From NCBI RefSeq assembly GCF_011682235.2, contig NZ_CP076718.1:186001-250000 (forward strand): DNA of 64,000 nt, written 5' to 3'. This document shows, in pieces, positions 4,885 through 35,720 of the stretch. Numbering within the stretch: position 1 is the stretch's first letter; each line of letters opens with the position of its first letter. The notes beneath the pieces are model-generated. The model made no database searches, was not told where the DNA came from, and saw nothing but the letters and a program-made list of their open reading frames with translations. Made by a program: the position numbers and the translations under genes. Source of the stretch: Rhodocaloribacter litoris. GTDB taxonomy: Bacteria > Bacteroidota > Rhodothermia > Rhodothermales > ISCAR-4553.

Positions 4885-5676
4885 TTATCCGGCCTGCTCC
4901 TTGAACCGGTAGCCGATGCCCTTGACCGTCTCGATGTAGGCGCTGCCGAGGCGGGCGCGGATCTTCCGGACGTGCACGTCCACCGTGCGCACCATCAGAT
5001 CGCTGTTCTCCCACAGGCGTGCCAGCAGTTCCTCCCGTGAGAAGACCCGGCCGGGGTGCGCGGCCAGAAAGTAGAGCAGTTCGAACTGCTGGCGAGGCAA
5101 ATGCATCGTGATGCGCCGGTCCCCCTGTTTGCGGTAGACGGTGTACCGGCTCCGGTCGATGATCAGATCCTCGACCTCGACGACGTCGGGCGCCCCCGTG
5201 AAGCGGGCGATGCTGCGGAGCAGGGCGCGTATCTGCCCGGCGAGCACGGCCGGAGAGACGGACCGCGCGAGCACCAGGTCGGCCCCGGCGTCGAGGGCGC
5301 GCAGGCGGTCCTGCTCACGGCCCGGCTCCACCAGGAGCACGAGGAGCAGCGTGCCCCGGCGGTCGTCCGCGCGCAGGCGGCGGCACAGGTCGAGGCCACC
5401 GGAACGCGGCGCCCCGGCATCGAGGACGACCAGGTCCGGGGCCGTCGCGGCGAGGAGATCCACCGCCTCTGCACCGTTGCGGGCCACCGTAACGGCAAAG
5501 CCCGCCCGTGCGAGGGCATCGCCGTACCGGGCCGCCTCCTCCAGCGCTTCGCCGACGAGCAGCACAGCCGGGACCTGAGCGGAACGTGACGCGCGGGTAC
5601 GCATGCGCAGGGCCGGGCGCACCGGCTCGCCGTGCGCCGGCGGAGCTGCGGGCAACGCGACAGGGAGCGTAGACAT
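4885..5676 (-). CDS. OmpR/PhoB-type regulator with atypical receiver
   Basis: The 263-residue protein has an N-terminal receiver-like domain (about residues 35-155) and a C-terminal winged helix with FSREELLARLW, RTVDVHVRKIR and ETVKGIGYRF, as in PhoB/OmpR. In the receiver the phospho-acceptor Asp is present in LVVLDAGAP, but the usual acidic pair is replaced (LLVGEA), the Thr/Ser position reads LVE and the conserved Lys before the last strand is missing (LARSVSP). It may therefore act without normal phosphorylation; that is inference. It lies 78 bases downstream of the secreted-protein gene and is probably the last gene of the TonB-receptor operon. The ATG at 5676 is chosen over a GTG at 5730. 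Confidence 0.85.
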   Translation of the reverse strand: MSTLPVALPAAPPAHGEPVRPALRMRTRASRSAQVPAVLLVGEALEEAARYGDALARAGFAVTVARNGAEAVDLLAATAPDLVVLDAGAPRSGGLDLCRRLRADDRRGTLLLVLLVEPGREQDRLRALDAGADLVLARSVSPAVLAGQIRALLRSIARFTGAPDVVEVEDLIIDRSRYTVYRKQGDRRITMHLPRQQFELLYFLAAHPGRVFSREELLARLWENSDLMVRTVDVHVRKIRARLGSAYIETVKGIGYRFKEQAG

Positions 5677-7636: not shown

Positions 7637-10528
7637 TCAGAGGTTGTAGGTAAGGGACAGCTTGTACGTGACCCCGAGCCGGTAGCGCCGCGCCTCGAAC
7701 CGCCGGCCGTTGTATTCCTGCCCTTCGACGTAGTCGTCGTCGAGCAGGTTGGCGACGGCGAACCGGGCGTCGACGTTGCCGACGAGCCGCTGCTTCACGA
7801 CCAGGTTGAGGTCGTTGCGGCCGAACTCGAAAATGTTGGGCGTGCCGCCGATGCTCACGCGCGAGAGGCGCTTGCCGAAGCGGTTGAAGGACACGGACAC
7901 CGACGTGCCCCGTTCGAGGTGGTCGTAGGCGAGAGTCAGGTTGAAGACGTAGGGGGACTGCCCCTGGAACGGCCGCGTCGTGCCGATGTCGAAGCCCTCG
8001 GCGAACGCGAGTTCGCGCTCGGGCACGTCCGTCTCGGAGTGGATCAGCGCCAGGTTGGTGCTGACGGTCATGCGCCGGACGACGGGCAGCGCCACGAAGT
8101 CGAGCAGCTTGCGCACCTCGAACTCGACGCCCGCCACCCGGGCCCGCGGGACGTTCTGGTACGTCTCCTGGTCGTTGTTCGAGATGACGACGCGCTCGAT
8201 GGGGTGCTTGAAGTACTTGTAGAAGCCGCTGACGGCGAGCACCTCGCCGGGCCGCATGAACCACTCCCAGCGCACGTCATAGTTGTTGATGAGGGTACGC
8301 TGGAGGTCCGGGTTGCCGGCCGTCTGCCGCCCGCCGGCGAAGTCGAAAGCCGAGAACGGGGCCTTCTCCCGGAAGGTGGGCCGGGCCAGCGTGCGCGTGG
8401 CCGAGAAGCGGAGGTTCATGTTGTCCTGCAGCGCATAGACCACGTTGAGCGAGGGCAACACGTCGCGGTCGTCGAGCAGCCCCGGCGCCTTCGTCGAGTC
8501 CCGGCTGACGATCTCGAACGCGGCGGCTTCGTAGCGGGCCCCGCCGATGAGGCGCAGCCGCCGCGTCACCGTCAGCTCGGCCATGGCATAGGCGGCCGTC
8601 ACCTCCTGCGTCCCGTCGTAGTTGTTCGCGGCGATGCTGCCGTCGCGGATGGTGTTGCCGAAGACGAACCGCCCGTTGTTCTCCTCCAGGATGCCGATGT
8701 TATCCGGGCCGAAGTAGGCGTTGACGTCCCCGTTGAACACGCGAAAGGGGACGCTCCCTTCCACGTAGTCGAACTTACGCTCGCGGAAGGTGCGGTCTTT
8801 CTTCAGGTACGCCCCGCCCGTTTTGAGCTTGACCGGTGCGGCCAGGCCCAGGTCCACCGGCAGCTCCACGTTGAGTTGCACCTCACGGTTCTCCTCTTCG
8901 AGATCCCGGAAGAGGCGCGTTGGCGGCGTGGCGTTCGACGAGCCGAGCACCAGGTCGTAGACGCGGAACGTGGTGTCCTCGCGTACGACGTCGACGAACT
9001 GGTCGAAGAAGAAGCGCAGGTCCGGCTCTTCCTGCCGGGTGCCGGCGACGGAGGCCATCCAGTCGATGCGCACGGGCCGGAGGAAGTGCTCGCCGCGCAG
9101 CTGGCCGGAACGCACGCCGCGCTCGGTGTAGCGCAGCACGTACGTCTCGAAGCGGACCGTCTCGGGCGAGTTCTTCGGGAAGGGCCCGACGGCATAGCGG
9201 GCCTCGTGGTCGCTCACCTGCGACCGGTACAGGTTGACGCCCACCTGGTGATGCGGGTGCAGCTTGTAGGTCAGGTTCGCCAGCACCCCCCAGTTGACCG
9301 ACTCGGTGCCCTGCCGGTCGGCCAGGTCGTAGTCGACGAACAGTTCCTCGGCGTTGGGGTCGGTAAGGACGAACTGGGCCACGCGGCCGCCCTCGTAAGC
9401 CTTGAAGCCCCGGCTGTATGTGGCGCTGGCCACCACGCCGAGCGCCCGCCCGAAGACCGGCATCTGGGTGCCCAGCGAGGCCGCATAGCTCAGGTCCAGG
9501 CCGGAGCGGCGCGGAATGGGCACCATGACCGGGTTGAAGGCGCGGGTGAGCTGGTCGAGCTGCGCCGCCAGGGCCGGGTCGCGCCGGGCCTGCGTGGGCC
9601 GCGGGATCGCGAGGCCGGGCGATTGCAACAGTGACGGCAGGGCTCGGAGGCCGTCGTCAAAGCCGAGCCAGTCGGTGTCGCTCCGGGGTCCGGAGAGAAA
9701 ATCGTCCTTGAGCGAAGCCCGCGTGCTGTAGCCGGTCGTCGTGGTGAGTTGCAGGCCGAAGCGCTCGGGGAAGTCTTTCGTGCGGAGGTTGACGTTGCCG
9801 CCGGTGAAGTTACCGGGCTGGTCCGGCGTGAAGGTCTTCGTGGCGACGATGTTGTCGAGCAGGTTGGCCGGGAAGAGGTCGAACTGGGCGGCATTGCGGT
9901 CGGGGTCGGCGCTGGGGAGGGTGGCGCCGTTGAGTTGGGCGTTGCCGTAGCGCCCGCCCAGGCCGCGCACGTAGACGTACTTGCCGCCCACCACAGAGGC
10001 ACCGGTGACGCGGCTCATGGCCTCGGCGGCGTCCCCCGCGCCGGCCTGCGCCATGGCCCGGGCGCTGATGGCATCGCTGACGGCGATGGCTTTCGCGCGG
10101 TCCTTGAGCAGCACGGCGTCGTTGTTACGCAGGGCGCGGGCCTCCACCACCACCTCGCCCCCGACCTCCACGGCCTCCTCGACGAGGCTCATATCCACAC
10201 GGATCACCGCACCCGCCTTCACCTCCACGCCCCCGACGCGTGCATCCCGGAAGCCCAGATACGAAAACACCAGGGTGTACGTCCCCGGTGCCACCCGCTC
10301 GATGGTATAGCGCCCATCGAGGTCGGTCGTAGCGCCGGTGGTGGTGCCGTCGAGCACCACGTTGGCCCCGATGAGCGTCTCGCCCGTGCCGGCATCGACC
10401 ACCACCCCGGTGATCTTGCCGGTTTGCTGTGCCCGTGCGGGCATCACACCCGGCAGCAGGCCCAGAAGCAGCACCCCCAGGCTCCACACCACGCCGGACC
10501 CGTTCCGTCGTACCATCGAATCTATCAT
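7637..10528 (-). CDS. large TonB-dependent outer-membrane receptor
   Basis: The 963-residue product has a signal peptide ending near PARAQQ (residue 35), a carboxypeptidase-regulatory-like domain (about 36-125, GVVVDAGTGETLIGANV), a plug with VYVRGLGGRYGNAQLNG and LLDNIVATKTFTPDQPGNF (about 130-250) and a long beta-barrel ending in YKLSLTYNL. This is the large receptor subtype often found beside a sorting-tail secreted protein in Bacteroidota. The ligand cannot be read from sequence; the upstream Pho-box-like array suggests phosphate or a phosphorylated compound (inference). Both an ATG at 10528 and one at 10516 are possible starts; neither has a strong ribosome site. Confidence 0.9.
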   Translation of the reverse strand: MIDSMVRRNGSGVVWSLGVLLLGLLPGVMPARAQQTGKITGVVVDAGTGETLIGANVVLDGTTTGATTDLDGRYTIERVAPGTYTLVFSYLGFRDARVGGVEVKAGAVIRVDMSLVEEAVEVGGEVVVEARALRNNDAVLLKDRAKAIAVSDAISARAMAQAGAGDAAEAMSRVTGASVVGGKYVYVRGLGGRYGNAQLNGATLPSADPDRNAAQFDLFPANLLDNIVATKTFTPDQPGNFTGGNVNLRTKDFPERFGLQLTTTTGYSTRASLKDDFLSGPRSDTDWLGFDDGLRALPSLLQSPGLAIPRPTQARRDPALAAQLDQLTRAFNPVMVPIPRRSGLDLSYAASLGTQMPVFGRALGVVASATYSRGFKAYEGGRVAQFVLTDPNAEELFVDYDLADRQGTESVNWGVLANLTYKLHPHHQVGVNLYRSQVSDHEARYAVGPFPKNSPETVRFETYVLRYTERGVRSGQLRGEHFLRPVRIDWMASVAGTRQEEPDLRFFFDQFVDVVREDTTFRVYDLVLGSSNATPPTRLFRDLEEENREVQLNVELPVDLGLAAPVKLKTGGAYLKKDRTFRERKFDYVEGSVPFRVFNGDVNAYFGPDNIGILEENNGRFVFGNTIRDGSIAANNYDGTQEVTAAYAMAELTVTRRLRLIGGARYEAAAFEIVSRDSTKAPGLLDDRDVLPSLNVVYALQDNMNLRFSATRTLARPTFREKAPFSAFDFAGGRQTAGNPDLQRTLINNYDVRWEWFMRPGEVLAVSGFYKYFKHPIERVVISNNDQETYQNVPRARVAGVEFEVRKLLDFVALPVVRRMTVSTNLALIHSETDVPERELAFAEGFDIGTTRPFQGQSPYVFNLTLAYDHLERGTSVSVSFNRFGKRLSRVSIGGTPNIFEFGRNDLNLVVKQRLVGNVDARFAVANLLDDDYVEGQEYNGRRFEARRYRLGVTYKLSLTYNL

Positions 10529-10598
10529 CAGGTTGGTTCGTCTGCGATGCCGCCGGCCGCGATGAGGCCCGGCAGCGAGCGCAAACTATTCCCCTGAT

Positions 10599-10635
10599 GT
10601 TAACCCGGCGTTACGAGCACGTTATCGCTGGTTTA
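10599..10635 (-). promoter_or_regulatory. Pho-box-like array: four boxes at exact 11-bp spacing
   Basis: On the plus strand GTTA occurs at 10599, 10610 and 10621, and TTTA at 10632, each 11 bases apart. Read on the coding (minus) strand this is a series of NTAAC boxes of 7 bases separated by 4-base spacers, the layout of PhoB-type operators and close to the YTTAAC cyanobacterial Pho box. The array ends about 70 bases before the receptor start; AATAGT just downstream could serve as a -10 element. An OmpR/PhoB-type regulator is the third gene downstream. Confidence 0.55.
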
Positions 10636-10898
10636 ATTCCCGGCCTGCTCTTCCCGCGTCGGTGCTTCCGTCGGGGAGAGGCCGGTCACCCGGCACTGCA
10701 ACGGCTCATGTGCCCCCCTTCGTAGCAGGACTCCGGCCTCAAGACGGCGGGGGACGCCGTGTTCCGAAGTGCCTTCGTGCCGGGACCGTGTCTTGCCTTC
10801 TACCCGCCACGAAGCCTTTCCCGTCCCCCCCGACACACTGGCCATGTGTGTTCATGTTTGCGTCCGCACTGAAAAGCGGTCCTTCGGCCTTCACGGGG
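10636..10898. other. intergenic stretch with no recognised gene
   Basis: Between the operator array and the end of the M24 peptidase gene both strands lack a convincing reading frame. I see no terminator with a T run and no known RNA structure here. Confidence 0.5.
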
Positions 10899-11966
10899 TC
10901 AGAGCACGATGAGCTCCTTCGGTGCGGTGGTCAGGTTCTCGCAGCCGCCGTCGTGCAGGACGACGATGTCCTCGATGCGCACGCCGAAACGACCGGGCAG
11001 GTAGATGCCCGGCTCGATGGTCACGGCCGCACCGGCCGGAAGCGCCTCCTCCGAACGAAACGAAACGGCGGGCCATTCGTGGGTTTGCAGGCCGATACCG
11101 TGACCGAGGCTGTGGGGAAAGTATTCCGCATAGCCGGCCGCCGCGATGACGTCCCGGGCGGCTGCATCCAGTTCCCGCGCGATGATGCCGGCCCGGGCCG
11201 CCGCCAGGGCCTGACGCTGTGCGGCGCGCACGACGTCGTAGACCCGCCGCGCCTCCTCGCCCGGCTCGCCGACGGCCACCGTCCGCGTCAGATCCGAGGC
11301 ATACCCGTCCACGACGCCCCCGAAGTCGAGCACGACGAGGTCGCCCGTTTCGATCTTCCGATGCGTCGGACGGGCATGGGGCAGGGCGCCGTTCGGCCCG
11401 GCGGCCACGATGGGCTCGAAGGCCATCCGCTCGGCCCCATGCCGGAGATGACGATAGACGATCTCCGCCGCCACCTCGCGTTCGGTCATCCCCGGGCGCA
11501 GCAGGTCGAGCAACTCGGAAAAGACGGCTTCCGTGAGGCGCTGGGCCCGGCGGATGCACGCGACCTCTTCCGGCGCTTTCTCCGCCACCAGCCGCACCAG
11601 CAGTTGCTCCACCGGGTGCCAGGCAACGTCCGGAAAAAGCGCCCGGAGCCGTGCCTGCCCGGCCAGCGTGACGTGTTCGGCCTGCAGGAGCACCTTTTCT
11701 CCCGCCTCGAACAGCCCGGCTTCGGCCGCATAGCCCAGGAGATCGTAGCCCGGCGCGTGCACCGCGGCGTCCCGCACCTCGCGCTCCGCCTGCACGCGGT
11801 AGCGCCCGTCGGTGATCAGATGCGCCGCTCCGGGCCGAACGATGAGCACCCCGTTCGAGCCGGTGAAGCCGCACGCCCACCGCACGTCGGGCAGGGACGT
11901 GATCAGCGCCGCGCCGGCCTCCTGCCGGGCACACAGGGCACGGATCCGGTCAAGACGGGTGGGCAT
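10899..11966 (-). CDS. M24 family metallopeptidase, Xaa-Pro dipeptidase/aminopeptidase-like
   Basis: The 355-residue protein has the creatinase-like N domain (about 1-125) and the pita-bread catalytic domain. All five metal ligands are visible: Asp in VVLDFGG, Asp in ASDLTRT, His in SLGHGIGL, Glu in IEPGIYLPG and Glu in RIEDIVV. This marks an active dimetal Xaa-Pro peptidase and excludes creatinase, which lacks the metal site. It would hydrolyse X-Pro peptide bonds in the cytoplasm. It is the last gene of a minus-strand set PfkB kinase - creatininase-like - M24 with gaps of 79-86 bases, so cotranscription is likely although a shared pathway is not evident. Confidence 0.93.
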   Translation of the reverse strand: MPTRLDRIRALCARQEAGAALITSLPDVRWACGFTGSNGVLIVRPGAAHLITDGRYRVQAEREVRDAAVHAPGYDLLGYAAEAGLFEAGEKVLLQAEHVTLAGQARLRALFPDVAWHPVEQLLVRLVAEKAPEEVACIRRAQRLTEAVFSELLDLLRPGMTEREVAAEIVYRHLRHGAERMAFEPIVAAGPNGALPHARPTHRKIETGDLVVLDFGGVVDGYASDLTRTVAVGEPGEEARRVYDVVRAAQRQALAAARAGIIARELDAAARDVIAAAGYAEYFPHSLGHGIGLQTHEWPAVSFRSEEALPAGAAVTIEPGIYLPGRFGVRIEDIVVLHDGGCENLTTAPKELIVL

Positions 11967-33746: not shown

Positions 33747-34418
33747 TCACCCGGGCCGAAGTGCGACACCCTGCCGGAGGACGGCGAGCGCCTCCGGTCC
33801 GTAGTTGAAGAGCAGGTCCACCGCCGACACGTCCGGCTCGAAGCCGCTGAAGTTCTGCCGGTAGGGCGGCGTCTCGTAGCGCAGCACCTGTGCCGACGGC
33901 GCCAGCGGGACGTCGTGCGCGGCGGCTTCTTCCGGAACGAGGAGCCGGTCCGCACCCGTCGCGGCCAGCACCTTCGTGAGCGTATCCGGCGCCCCGGCCA
34001 GGCCGGAGGCCCGCAGGAGCGGGGTCCTGATGCCCAGCAGCCGCGCCACGAGTGCCACCGTCGCGCAGGTCAGGTCCGCCAGGTGCGTCCACGTTCCGGC
34101 GAAGAGGGATTCGAAGTCGGGTTCGTAGTATTCGAAAAACGGCGTGGAGCGGTAGTTGTACATGAAGGCGCGGCGGTGCTTGCCCATCCAGTCGCGGCGT
34201 GGCTCGATCTCGACGGCGCGGATGGGGCGCCCGTGCTGCCCGCCCCGCAGGGGGATGGAAACCCACTGCCGGCCCTGCGGCGTGCGCAGCCGTGCCCGGT
34301 TCTGGTACGACTGCCGGCTGTACTGAAACGTGTCGGCCAGTACGAACCGCTCGGCCGCATCCATCAACGCGAAATACGCCAGGCGCGGAAAATACTCGGG
34401 CGGTCGGACGGCGATCAT
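33747..34418 (-). CDS. WbqC-like family protein
   Basis: The 223-residue product begins with EYFPRLAYFALMDAAERFVLADTFQYSRQSYQNR and has WVSIPLRGG, both diagnostic of the WbqC family. Members are encoded in O-antigen and other surface-polysaccharide loci and are thought to act in sugar-nucleotide or glycan modification; no reaction is proven. There is no glycan cluster immediately here, although the polysaccharide-deacetylase-like gene lies 6 kb away. The start ATG at 34418 is 75 bases from the insertion site of the IS element. Confidence 0.88.
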   Translation of the reverse strand: MIAVRPPEYFPRLAYFALMDAAERFVLADTFQYSRQSYQNRARLRTPQGRQWVSIPLRGGQHGRPIRAVEIEPRRDWMGKHRRAFMYNYRSTPFFEYYEPDFESLFAGTWTHLADLTCATVALVARLLGIRTPLLRASGLAGAPDTLTKVLAATGADRLLVPEEAAAHDVPLAPSAQVLRYETPPYRQNFSGFEPDVSAVDLLFNYGPEALAVLRQGVALRPG

Positions 34419-34502: not shown

Positions 34503-35720
34503 AAGGGCCACCTCATCTTCGTAAGTGTTTGTTCGTAGATTGGTTGAGTCTTTCTGCACTCAACCCGGCTCCGAACTATGGCTCCGCTCCTTGCCTACTT
34601 CCAAGATCTCGAAGATCCTCGATGGGATCGCTTTAAACTCCACCCATTCAATGACATCCTCTTCATTACCATCTGCGCCGCCATCTGTGGGGCCGATGGA
34701 TGGAAAGACATCGAAGCCTTCGCCCACGCCAAAGAAGACTGGCTCCGAGGCTACCTCGAATTGCCCCATGGCCTGCCCTCAGACGACACGTTCCGACGCG
34801 TCATCTCGCGCATCAACCCGGAGGCCTTCGAGACCTGTTTCCGGCACTGGGTCGCCTCGGTAGTCGAAGGGACCACCGGTGAACTCATCTGCATCGATGG
34901 CAAAACCCTGCGGGGATCCTATGACGCCCAGGACGAGAAAGCCGCCCTTTGCATGGTCAGTGCCTGGGCCTCGGCCAACGGGCTGATCATGGCCCAGGAG
35001 CGGGTCGATCAGAAGTCAAACGAGATCACGGCCATCCCAGCCTTGCTCTCGGCCCTGGAACTGAGCGGGTGTCTCGTAACGATCGATGCGATGGGGACGC
35101 AGCGGGAGATTGCCCGGCAGATCACCGATCAAGGGGGGCAGTACGTCCTGGCCCTCAAGAGCAATCATCCGACGCTCTACGAGGACGTGCGCACGTTCTT
35201 CGAGGAGGCGCAAGCGACGCAATTCCAGGGTATTGCCCACGACTATGCGGCGCGTACACGCCGCGTCGAACACACCGATGGCGGTCACGGGCGCATCGAA
35301 GTGCGCCGGTGCTGGGCCGTCGGGGATGTGGCGTGGCTGCGGCACCAGGATCGCTGGGCAGGTCTACGGACGTTGGTGCTGGTGGAGTCCCGTCGTATCG
35401 TGGGCACAGAAGAGCGTCTCGATCGCCGTTACTACATCGCCAGTGCGCCCGCCGATGCCGCGTCTCTGTTAGCGGCGGTACGTGGCCACTGGGGCATAGA
35501 GAACCGCGTGCACTGGGTCTTGGATGTGAGTTTTGGCGAGGACGGCAGTCGGATACGGAAGGATCACGGGGCGGCGAACATGTCGTTGCTGCGTCGATTG
35601 ACGCTGAATCTGATCCGTCGTGAGCCGAGCAAGGGCAGTCTCAAGGGCAAGCGCAAGCGAGCCGGTTGGGACAACCGCTTTCTTGAGAAGATCCTCACCG
35701 GTTAAGATGAGGTGGCCCTG
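34503..35720 (+). mobile_element. ISAs1-family insertion sequence, complete
   Basis: The 1218-base element carries one transposase and ends in 16-base perfect inverted repeats AGGGCCACCTCATCTT (34504-34519) and its complement (35704-35719). With the flanking 10-base duplication it looks intact and recently inserted. The right end is only 18 bases upstream of the promoter of the protease gene. Confidence 0.92.
34578..35705 (+). CDS. ISAs1-family transposase
   Basis: The 375-residue protein is complete: N-terminal LEDPRWDRFKLHPFNDILFITICA, the catalytic Asp in ICIDGKTLRGSYD (about residue 110), the Asp of VTIDAMGTQREIA (about 167), and a C-terminal HWGIENRVHWVLDVSFGEDGSRIR with the third acidic residue. 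These form the DDE-type active site of the ISAs1 group. It moves the element by cut-and-paste or copy. No stop or frameshift breaks it. Base composition is somewhat lower in GC than the surrounding chromosome. Confidence 0.95.
   Translation: MAPLLAYFQDLEDPRWDRFKLHPFNDILFITICAAICGADGWKDIEAFAHAKEDWLRGYLELPHGLPSDDTFRRVISRINPEAFETCFRHWVASVVEGTTGELICIDGKTLRGSYDAQDEKAALCMVSAWASANGLIMAQERVDQKSNEITAIPALLSALELSGCLVTIDAMGTQREIARQITDQGGQYVLALKSNHPTLYEDVRTFFEEAQATQFQGIAHDYAARTRRVEHTDGGHGRIEVRRCWAVGDVAWLRHQDRWAGLRTLVLVESRRIVGTEERLDRRYYIASAPADAASLLAAVRGHWGIENRVHWVLDVSFGEDGSRIRKDHGAANMSLLRRLTLNLIRREPSKGSLKGKRKRAGWDNRFLEKILTG

Follow-up and report, generated by a model that had tools for sequence, protein, structure and literature searches.

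Three genes stand in a row on the minus strand of the window, by which is meant the whole 64-kb stretch of Rhodocaloribacter litoris DNA that was analysed. The first encodes a TonB-dependent receptor, the second a secreted partner, and the third a PhoB-like response regulator, the order that the original prediction had assigned to them. Their coordinates, and those of the promoter features that precede them, are collected in Table 1. The partner and regulator genes are separated by a gap of 79 nt, and the regulator may be transcribed together with the rest of the unit. Upstream of the receptor, the window carries an M24 peptidase gene (10899-11966). Most relatives instead have, at this place, a divergently oriented gene whose product is a transporter-like membrane protein (VFSASSQVIIISPILP).

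Table 1. Positions in the window of the receptor unit and of the elements before it.
Feature	Position	Strand	Basis
Predicted Pho-box array, four 11-bp units ATTAAACCAGC GATAACGTGCT CGTAACGCCGG GTTAACATCAG	10594..10637	-	sequence; 11-bp period conserved in orthologues
Array cores: TAAA; TAAC, TAAC, TAAC	10635-10632; 10624-10621, 10613-10610, 10602-10599	-	
-7 promoter element TAGTTTG (consensus TAnnTTTG)	10588-10582	-	sequence; 14-nt spacing as in orthologous promoters
TonB-dependent receptor, first gene of unit	7637..10528	-	PF07715, PF13715, PF14905, PF00593
Secreted partner with type IX sorting tail, probable right-handed beta-helix	5755..7419	-	PF18962/TIGR04183
PhoB-like response regulator, degenerate receiver	4885..5676	-	PF00072+PF00486

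Read directly, the plus strand has GTTA at 10599, 10610 and 10621, and TTTA at 10632. Thus the four boxes at exact 11-bp spacing that had been predicted are all where they were placed, and the distance from the end of the array to the start of the receptor, given as about 70 bases, measures 71 nt (from 10599 to the ATG at 10528). What needed correction was the strand. The boxes belong on the minus strand, the strand of the genes, where their functional reading is TTAAACCAGCGATAACGTGCTCGTAACGCCGGGTTAAC, an array of the form TAAA-TAAC-TAAC-TAAC with an 11-bp period. On this strand, the fourth unit (GTTAACATCAG) is followed by GGGAA and then by TAGTTTG, a core promoter element absent from the original prediction. 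Counted from where the last TAAC core starts, this element begins 14 nt further on.

No second AT-rich array of period 11 is present in the 64-kb window when four 4-mers are required, three of them identical and with no more than one mismatch. Within the 4.5-Mb genome, GTTA repeated three times at 11-bp spacing occurs at one site (reversed control pattern, none), and TAAY repeated three times at that spacing at two sites (control, one); about 0.1 of the latter would be expected from base composition, by arithmetic that uses the GC content of the window (67.5%). Genome-wide statements here and below are based on pattern searches and on targeted stretches.

The receptor was matched by protein search in 40 of 40 relatives, most of which have a near full-length orthologue, and the partner gene adjoins it in most of them. 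Upstream of 30 orthologous receptors, 54 TAAY pairs, spread over 25 of the sequences, lie at a distance of 11 bp. The same 30 regions give a mean of 0.46 pairs in dinucleotide shuffles, 1.1 at other distances, and none in antisense. The pattern persists in a broader set of 74 named loci, which includes Roseithermus, Balneola, Gracilimonas, Melioribacter, Ignavibacteria, Calditrichota, KSB1, Zixibacteria and Gemmatimonadota. Here, 59 loci are positive for 11-bp pairs, and 129 pairs are found at distance 11, whereas no distance other than the multiples of 11 yields more than 16. (In Roseithermus, G008, the receptor was missed by a simple gene caller, and its upstream region was read from the protein match.) Pairs at 11 bp precede 84 of 117 receptors, but only 29 of 883 control genes from the same loci; those control genes show no excess at 11, with 19-28 pairs at distances of 10, 12 and 13. 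In lineages where the partner gene comes first, an array of at least three boxes precedes the partner in 8 of 10.

The genes conserved as neighbours of these receptor loci are plcP, a glycosyltransferase gene, pstSCAB and phoBR. In Rhodothermales, the receptor gene is commonly followed by those for partner, PlcP and glycosyltransferase in turn, and in receptor loci of other lineages pstSCAB or phoBR often lies alongside. One distant member of the phylum (L358) has phoR-phoB, then receptor, then partner. Arrays of five boxes (L131, G019:C30:175048-175095) and of three (L129, G003:C1:2940291) were also seen next to genes for predicted outer-membrane proteins without a Pfam match, whose relative in the window's genome (L064:14009-15019) is encoded close to pst.

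The original prediction had looked to arrays before known phosphate genes, and the box is indeed found before phoB, pstS, plcP and an alkaline phosphatase gene. In the window's genome there are two boxes each at phoB and pstS, three at plcP-agt, and several at the alkaline phosphatase gene (PF00245), which is preceded by the period-11 run TAAC-TTAC-TAAC-TAAC-TGAT-TAAC. The site of this six-unit array is L247:2378-2500 (G000:C1:2313428 region), and the alkaline phosphatase there has a C-terminal sorting domain. The second genomic TAAY triple lies about 75 bp before genes for a calcineurin-type phosphoesterase (PF12850) and a glycosyltransferase (PF13528/PF04101). Judged by domain type, the two correspond to PlcP and the glycosyltransferase that partners it, and they appear to be plcP-agt-like lipid-remodelling genes. 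PlcP and its partner are described as remodelling membrane lipids under phosphorus stress (PMC4796936); in F. johnsoniae, Pi depletion induces both a PlcP (pf12850) and a glycosyltransferase (pf04101) (PMC8115612). Across relatives, the box precedes phoB in 21 of 30 cases, pstS in 12 of 24, and plcP in 9 of 24, so that some relatives are without an array before plcP or phoB.

Two-box sites by themselves are weak evidence, since isolated pairs are no more frequent genome-wide (31) than in the reversed control (34). The pstS site has two clear boxes only, and a poor -7 element. Just upstream of pstS, an ATP-cone and AAA-type kinase-like gene (L064:7280-8778, G000:C1:3702478) has a TAAC pair of its own at 11 bp. 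Genes for an alanine symporter, a WecA-like protein, a DUF5916 protein and a WbqC-like protein were dropped as regulon members, their pair sites being at chance level. The WbqC-like gene (33747-34418) adjoins a transposase-like gene (34578-35705), with a single 11-bp TAAY pair, again at chance level, nearby.

An activator of the PhoB type, as the mechanism is known from E. coli, is expected to sit in the place of the -35 element. In Bacteroidota, the -7 consensus is TAnnTTTG (PMC7366714), scored here as TA followed by at least two of TTTG. In 18 of the 25 array-bearing receptor promoters, the -7 element follows the start of the last box by exactly 14 nt. Of 21 phoB promoters, 12 have it 25 nt beyond the last clear box, which is one repeat further. 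This fixed phase implies that the array occupies the -35 place. A scan of the downstream part for sigma-70-type promoters gave nothing useful.

The array therefore has what is expected of a Pho box: at least two direct repeats with an 11-nt period, a presence before known phosphate genes in the window's own genome, and a place next to the core promoter, in the -35 position, in a 14-nt or 25-nt phase to TAnnTTTG. Its core, TAAC/TAAT, is not the CTGTCAT of E. coli; cores differ between species (PMC4415409), so CTGTCAT does not define the class. What is directly observed is the array, how it is conserved, its position ahead of further phosphate genes, and the fixed promoter spacing; from these we infer a four-unit Pho box, a PhoB operator that would activate receptor and partner when phosphate is scarce. 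The probability of this reading is put at roughly 0.9. The comparison strongly supports the PhoB-type operator and the phosphate-responsive unit of the original prediction, with binding and induction themselves inferred.

The same prediction had the unit regulated by its own third gene, and this part has become doubtful. The protein encoded at 4885-5676 shares 46% identity with the intact PhoB of the genome, of which it is a paralogue. Its receiver keeps the phospho-Asp position only; the acidic pair, the Thr/Ser and the Lys needed for phosphorylation are gone, with VGE for VDDE, LVE for LTA and ARS for TKP. Against the PhoB equivalog cut-off of 296.2 bits, it scores 141.7 and the intact PhoB 228.9, and because the latter also falls below, the cut-off does not settle the matter here. 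No gene for a kinase was observed beside that of the regulator. A separate, intact PhoB-PhoR pair, with a box of its own, is encoded far from the window (about G000:C1:2145918-2147821), with PhoB itself at G000:C1:2147114-2147821. Most relatives have no regulator gene at this place in the unit. G002 (L231/L264) and L273 do have one there, with an intact acidic pair, and L273 keeps all of the receiver residues. Because the receiver is degenerate, no kinase gene adjoins, and the gene is missing from most relatives, the distant PhoB-PhoR pair, rather than this protein, is the most likely route of phosphate control.

The array might, of course, still be the operator of the local regulator, working without phosphorylation and autoregulating the unit, either by itself or while competing with PhoB. 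The regulator gene is, after all, the third in the unit, and the protein shares the recognition helix RTVDVHVRKIR, residue for residue, with the genome's PhoB. It could bind the boxes unphosphorylated. However, dozens of genomes conserve the array but lack a regulator gene at this place, and the same boxes precede genes across the window's genome. Thus, this regulator cannot be the original or the sole binder, and the explanation is an unlikely one. It is similarly improbable, if worth stating, that the degenerate paralogue is a phosphorylation-independent binder made only during the Pho response, which would tune or shut off the phosphate regulon from within.

Many regulators of the OmpR family bind tandem repeats of 10-11 bp, and the genome encodes several further members; the boxes might then serve one of these, in response to a different signal. 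However, the box-bearing set (phoB, pstS, alkaline phosphatase, plcP-agt and the receptor) is the phosphate regulon, and the motif moreover agrees with that of Riemerella PhoP. This makes the proposal very improbable. More remote again is chance periodicity. Isolated TAAY pairs do arise by chance, but the conservation, the spacing and the gene-set specificity, set against shuffles, other distances and the 883 control genes, leave this a negligible probability, and the same comparisons rule out alternative periods.

If the array is a PhoB operator, events at the promoter would run as follows. Under low phosphate, PhoR, encoded elsewhere in the genome, would phosphorylate PhoB. PhoB would then bind the 11-bp repeats head to tail (sense core [G/c]NTAA[C/T][A/G]), the repeats standing in for the -35 element. 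Bound in this way, it would recruit RNA polymerase to the -7 element, which lies 14 nt further downstream, and the receptor, its secreted partner and perhaps the third gene would be transcribed.

The receptor and its partner probably bind and import a phosphorus-containing substrate. A model of the partner (ten sequences, mean pLDDT 74) is mostly beta, and a fold search with it matched pectate lyases and T9SS tails, in each case weakly. The model is compatible with, though no proof of, a likeness to FII, the F. johnsoniae lipoprotein with a pectin-lyase fold.

No paper on direct-repeat Pho boxes in Bacteroidetes turned up in the library searched. The array would provide a precise and testable Pho operator for Rhodothermales, including its phase with the TAnnTTTG promoter, and on present evidence this operator would extend to much of Bacteroidota and to related phyla. 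The phosphate regulon of many uncultured and poorly studied lineages could then be read from sequence via the boxes. It would also place an uncharacterised receptor/beta-helix pair in the phosphate regulon, beside genes for phosphate transport and lipid remodelling, making the pair a candidate system for the uptake of organic phosphorus.

The PHO box as described elsewhere consists of tandem direct 11-nt repeats, with seven nucleotides better conserved and four less so; its core is CTGTCAT N4 for E. coli PhoB and GTTCACC in S. coelicolor (PMC4415409). The array in the window is like these in having 11-nt tandem direct repeats before phosphate genes, beside a core promoter. It is unlike them in its core (TAAC/TAAT-A), in its phasing to TAnnTTTG rather than to a sigma-70 -10 element, and in that arrays of its type have three to four or more units. 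Closer in phylogeny is PhoP of Riemerella anatipestifer, also in Bacteroidota, which by DAP-seq binds a TTTAACA motif, and whose gel shifts include the promoter of a TonB receptor (PMC9603813). Its site shares the core TTAACA with the array. In the passages that describe the motif, however, it is presented as ArcA-like, and these passages give no 11-bp operator, -7 phase or phosphate-gene set.

The closest parallel in gene content is the phoBR cluster of F. johnsoniae (PUSIV), where the receptor Fjoh_0545 is followed by the pectin-lyase-fold outer-membrane lipoprotein FII, Fjoh_0546 (PMC8115612). Upon Pi depletion, the two rise by log2 8.0 and 9.9, which places them among the strongly Pi-induced genes (PMC8115612). 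The two systems differ in that the partner in the window has a T9SS tail and is not a lipoprotein, phoB-phoR lies outside the cluster of the window, and the unit of the window includes a degenerate PhoB paralogue. Both are linked to phosphate regulation and lipid remodelling, with Pi induction measured for the F. johnsoniae genes only, and in both the receptor has plug, CarboxypepD_reg-like and OMP_b-brl_3 domains (PF07715, PF13715, PF14905).
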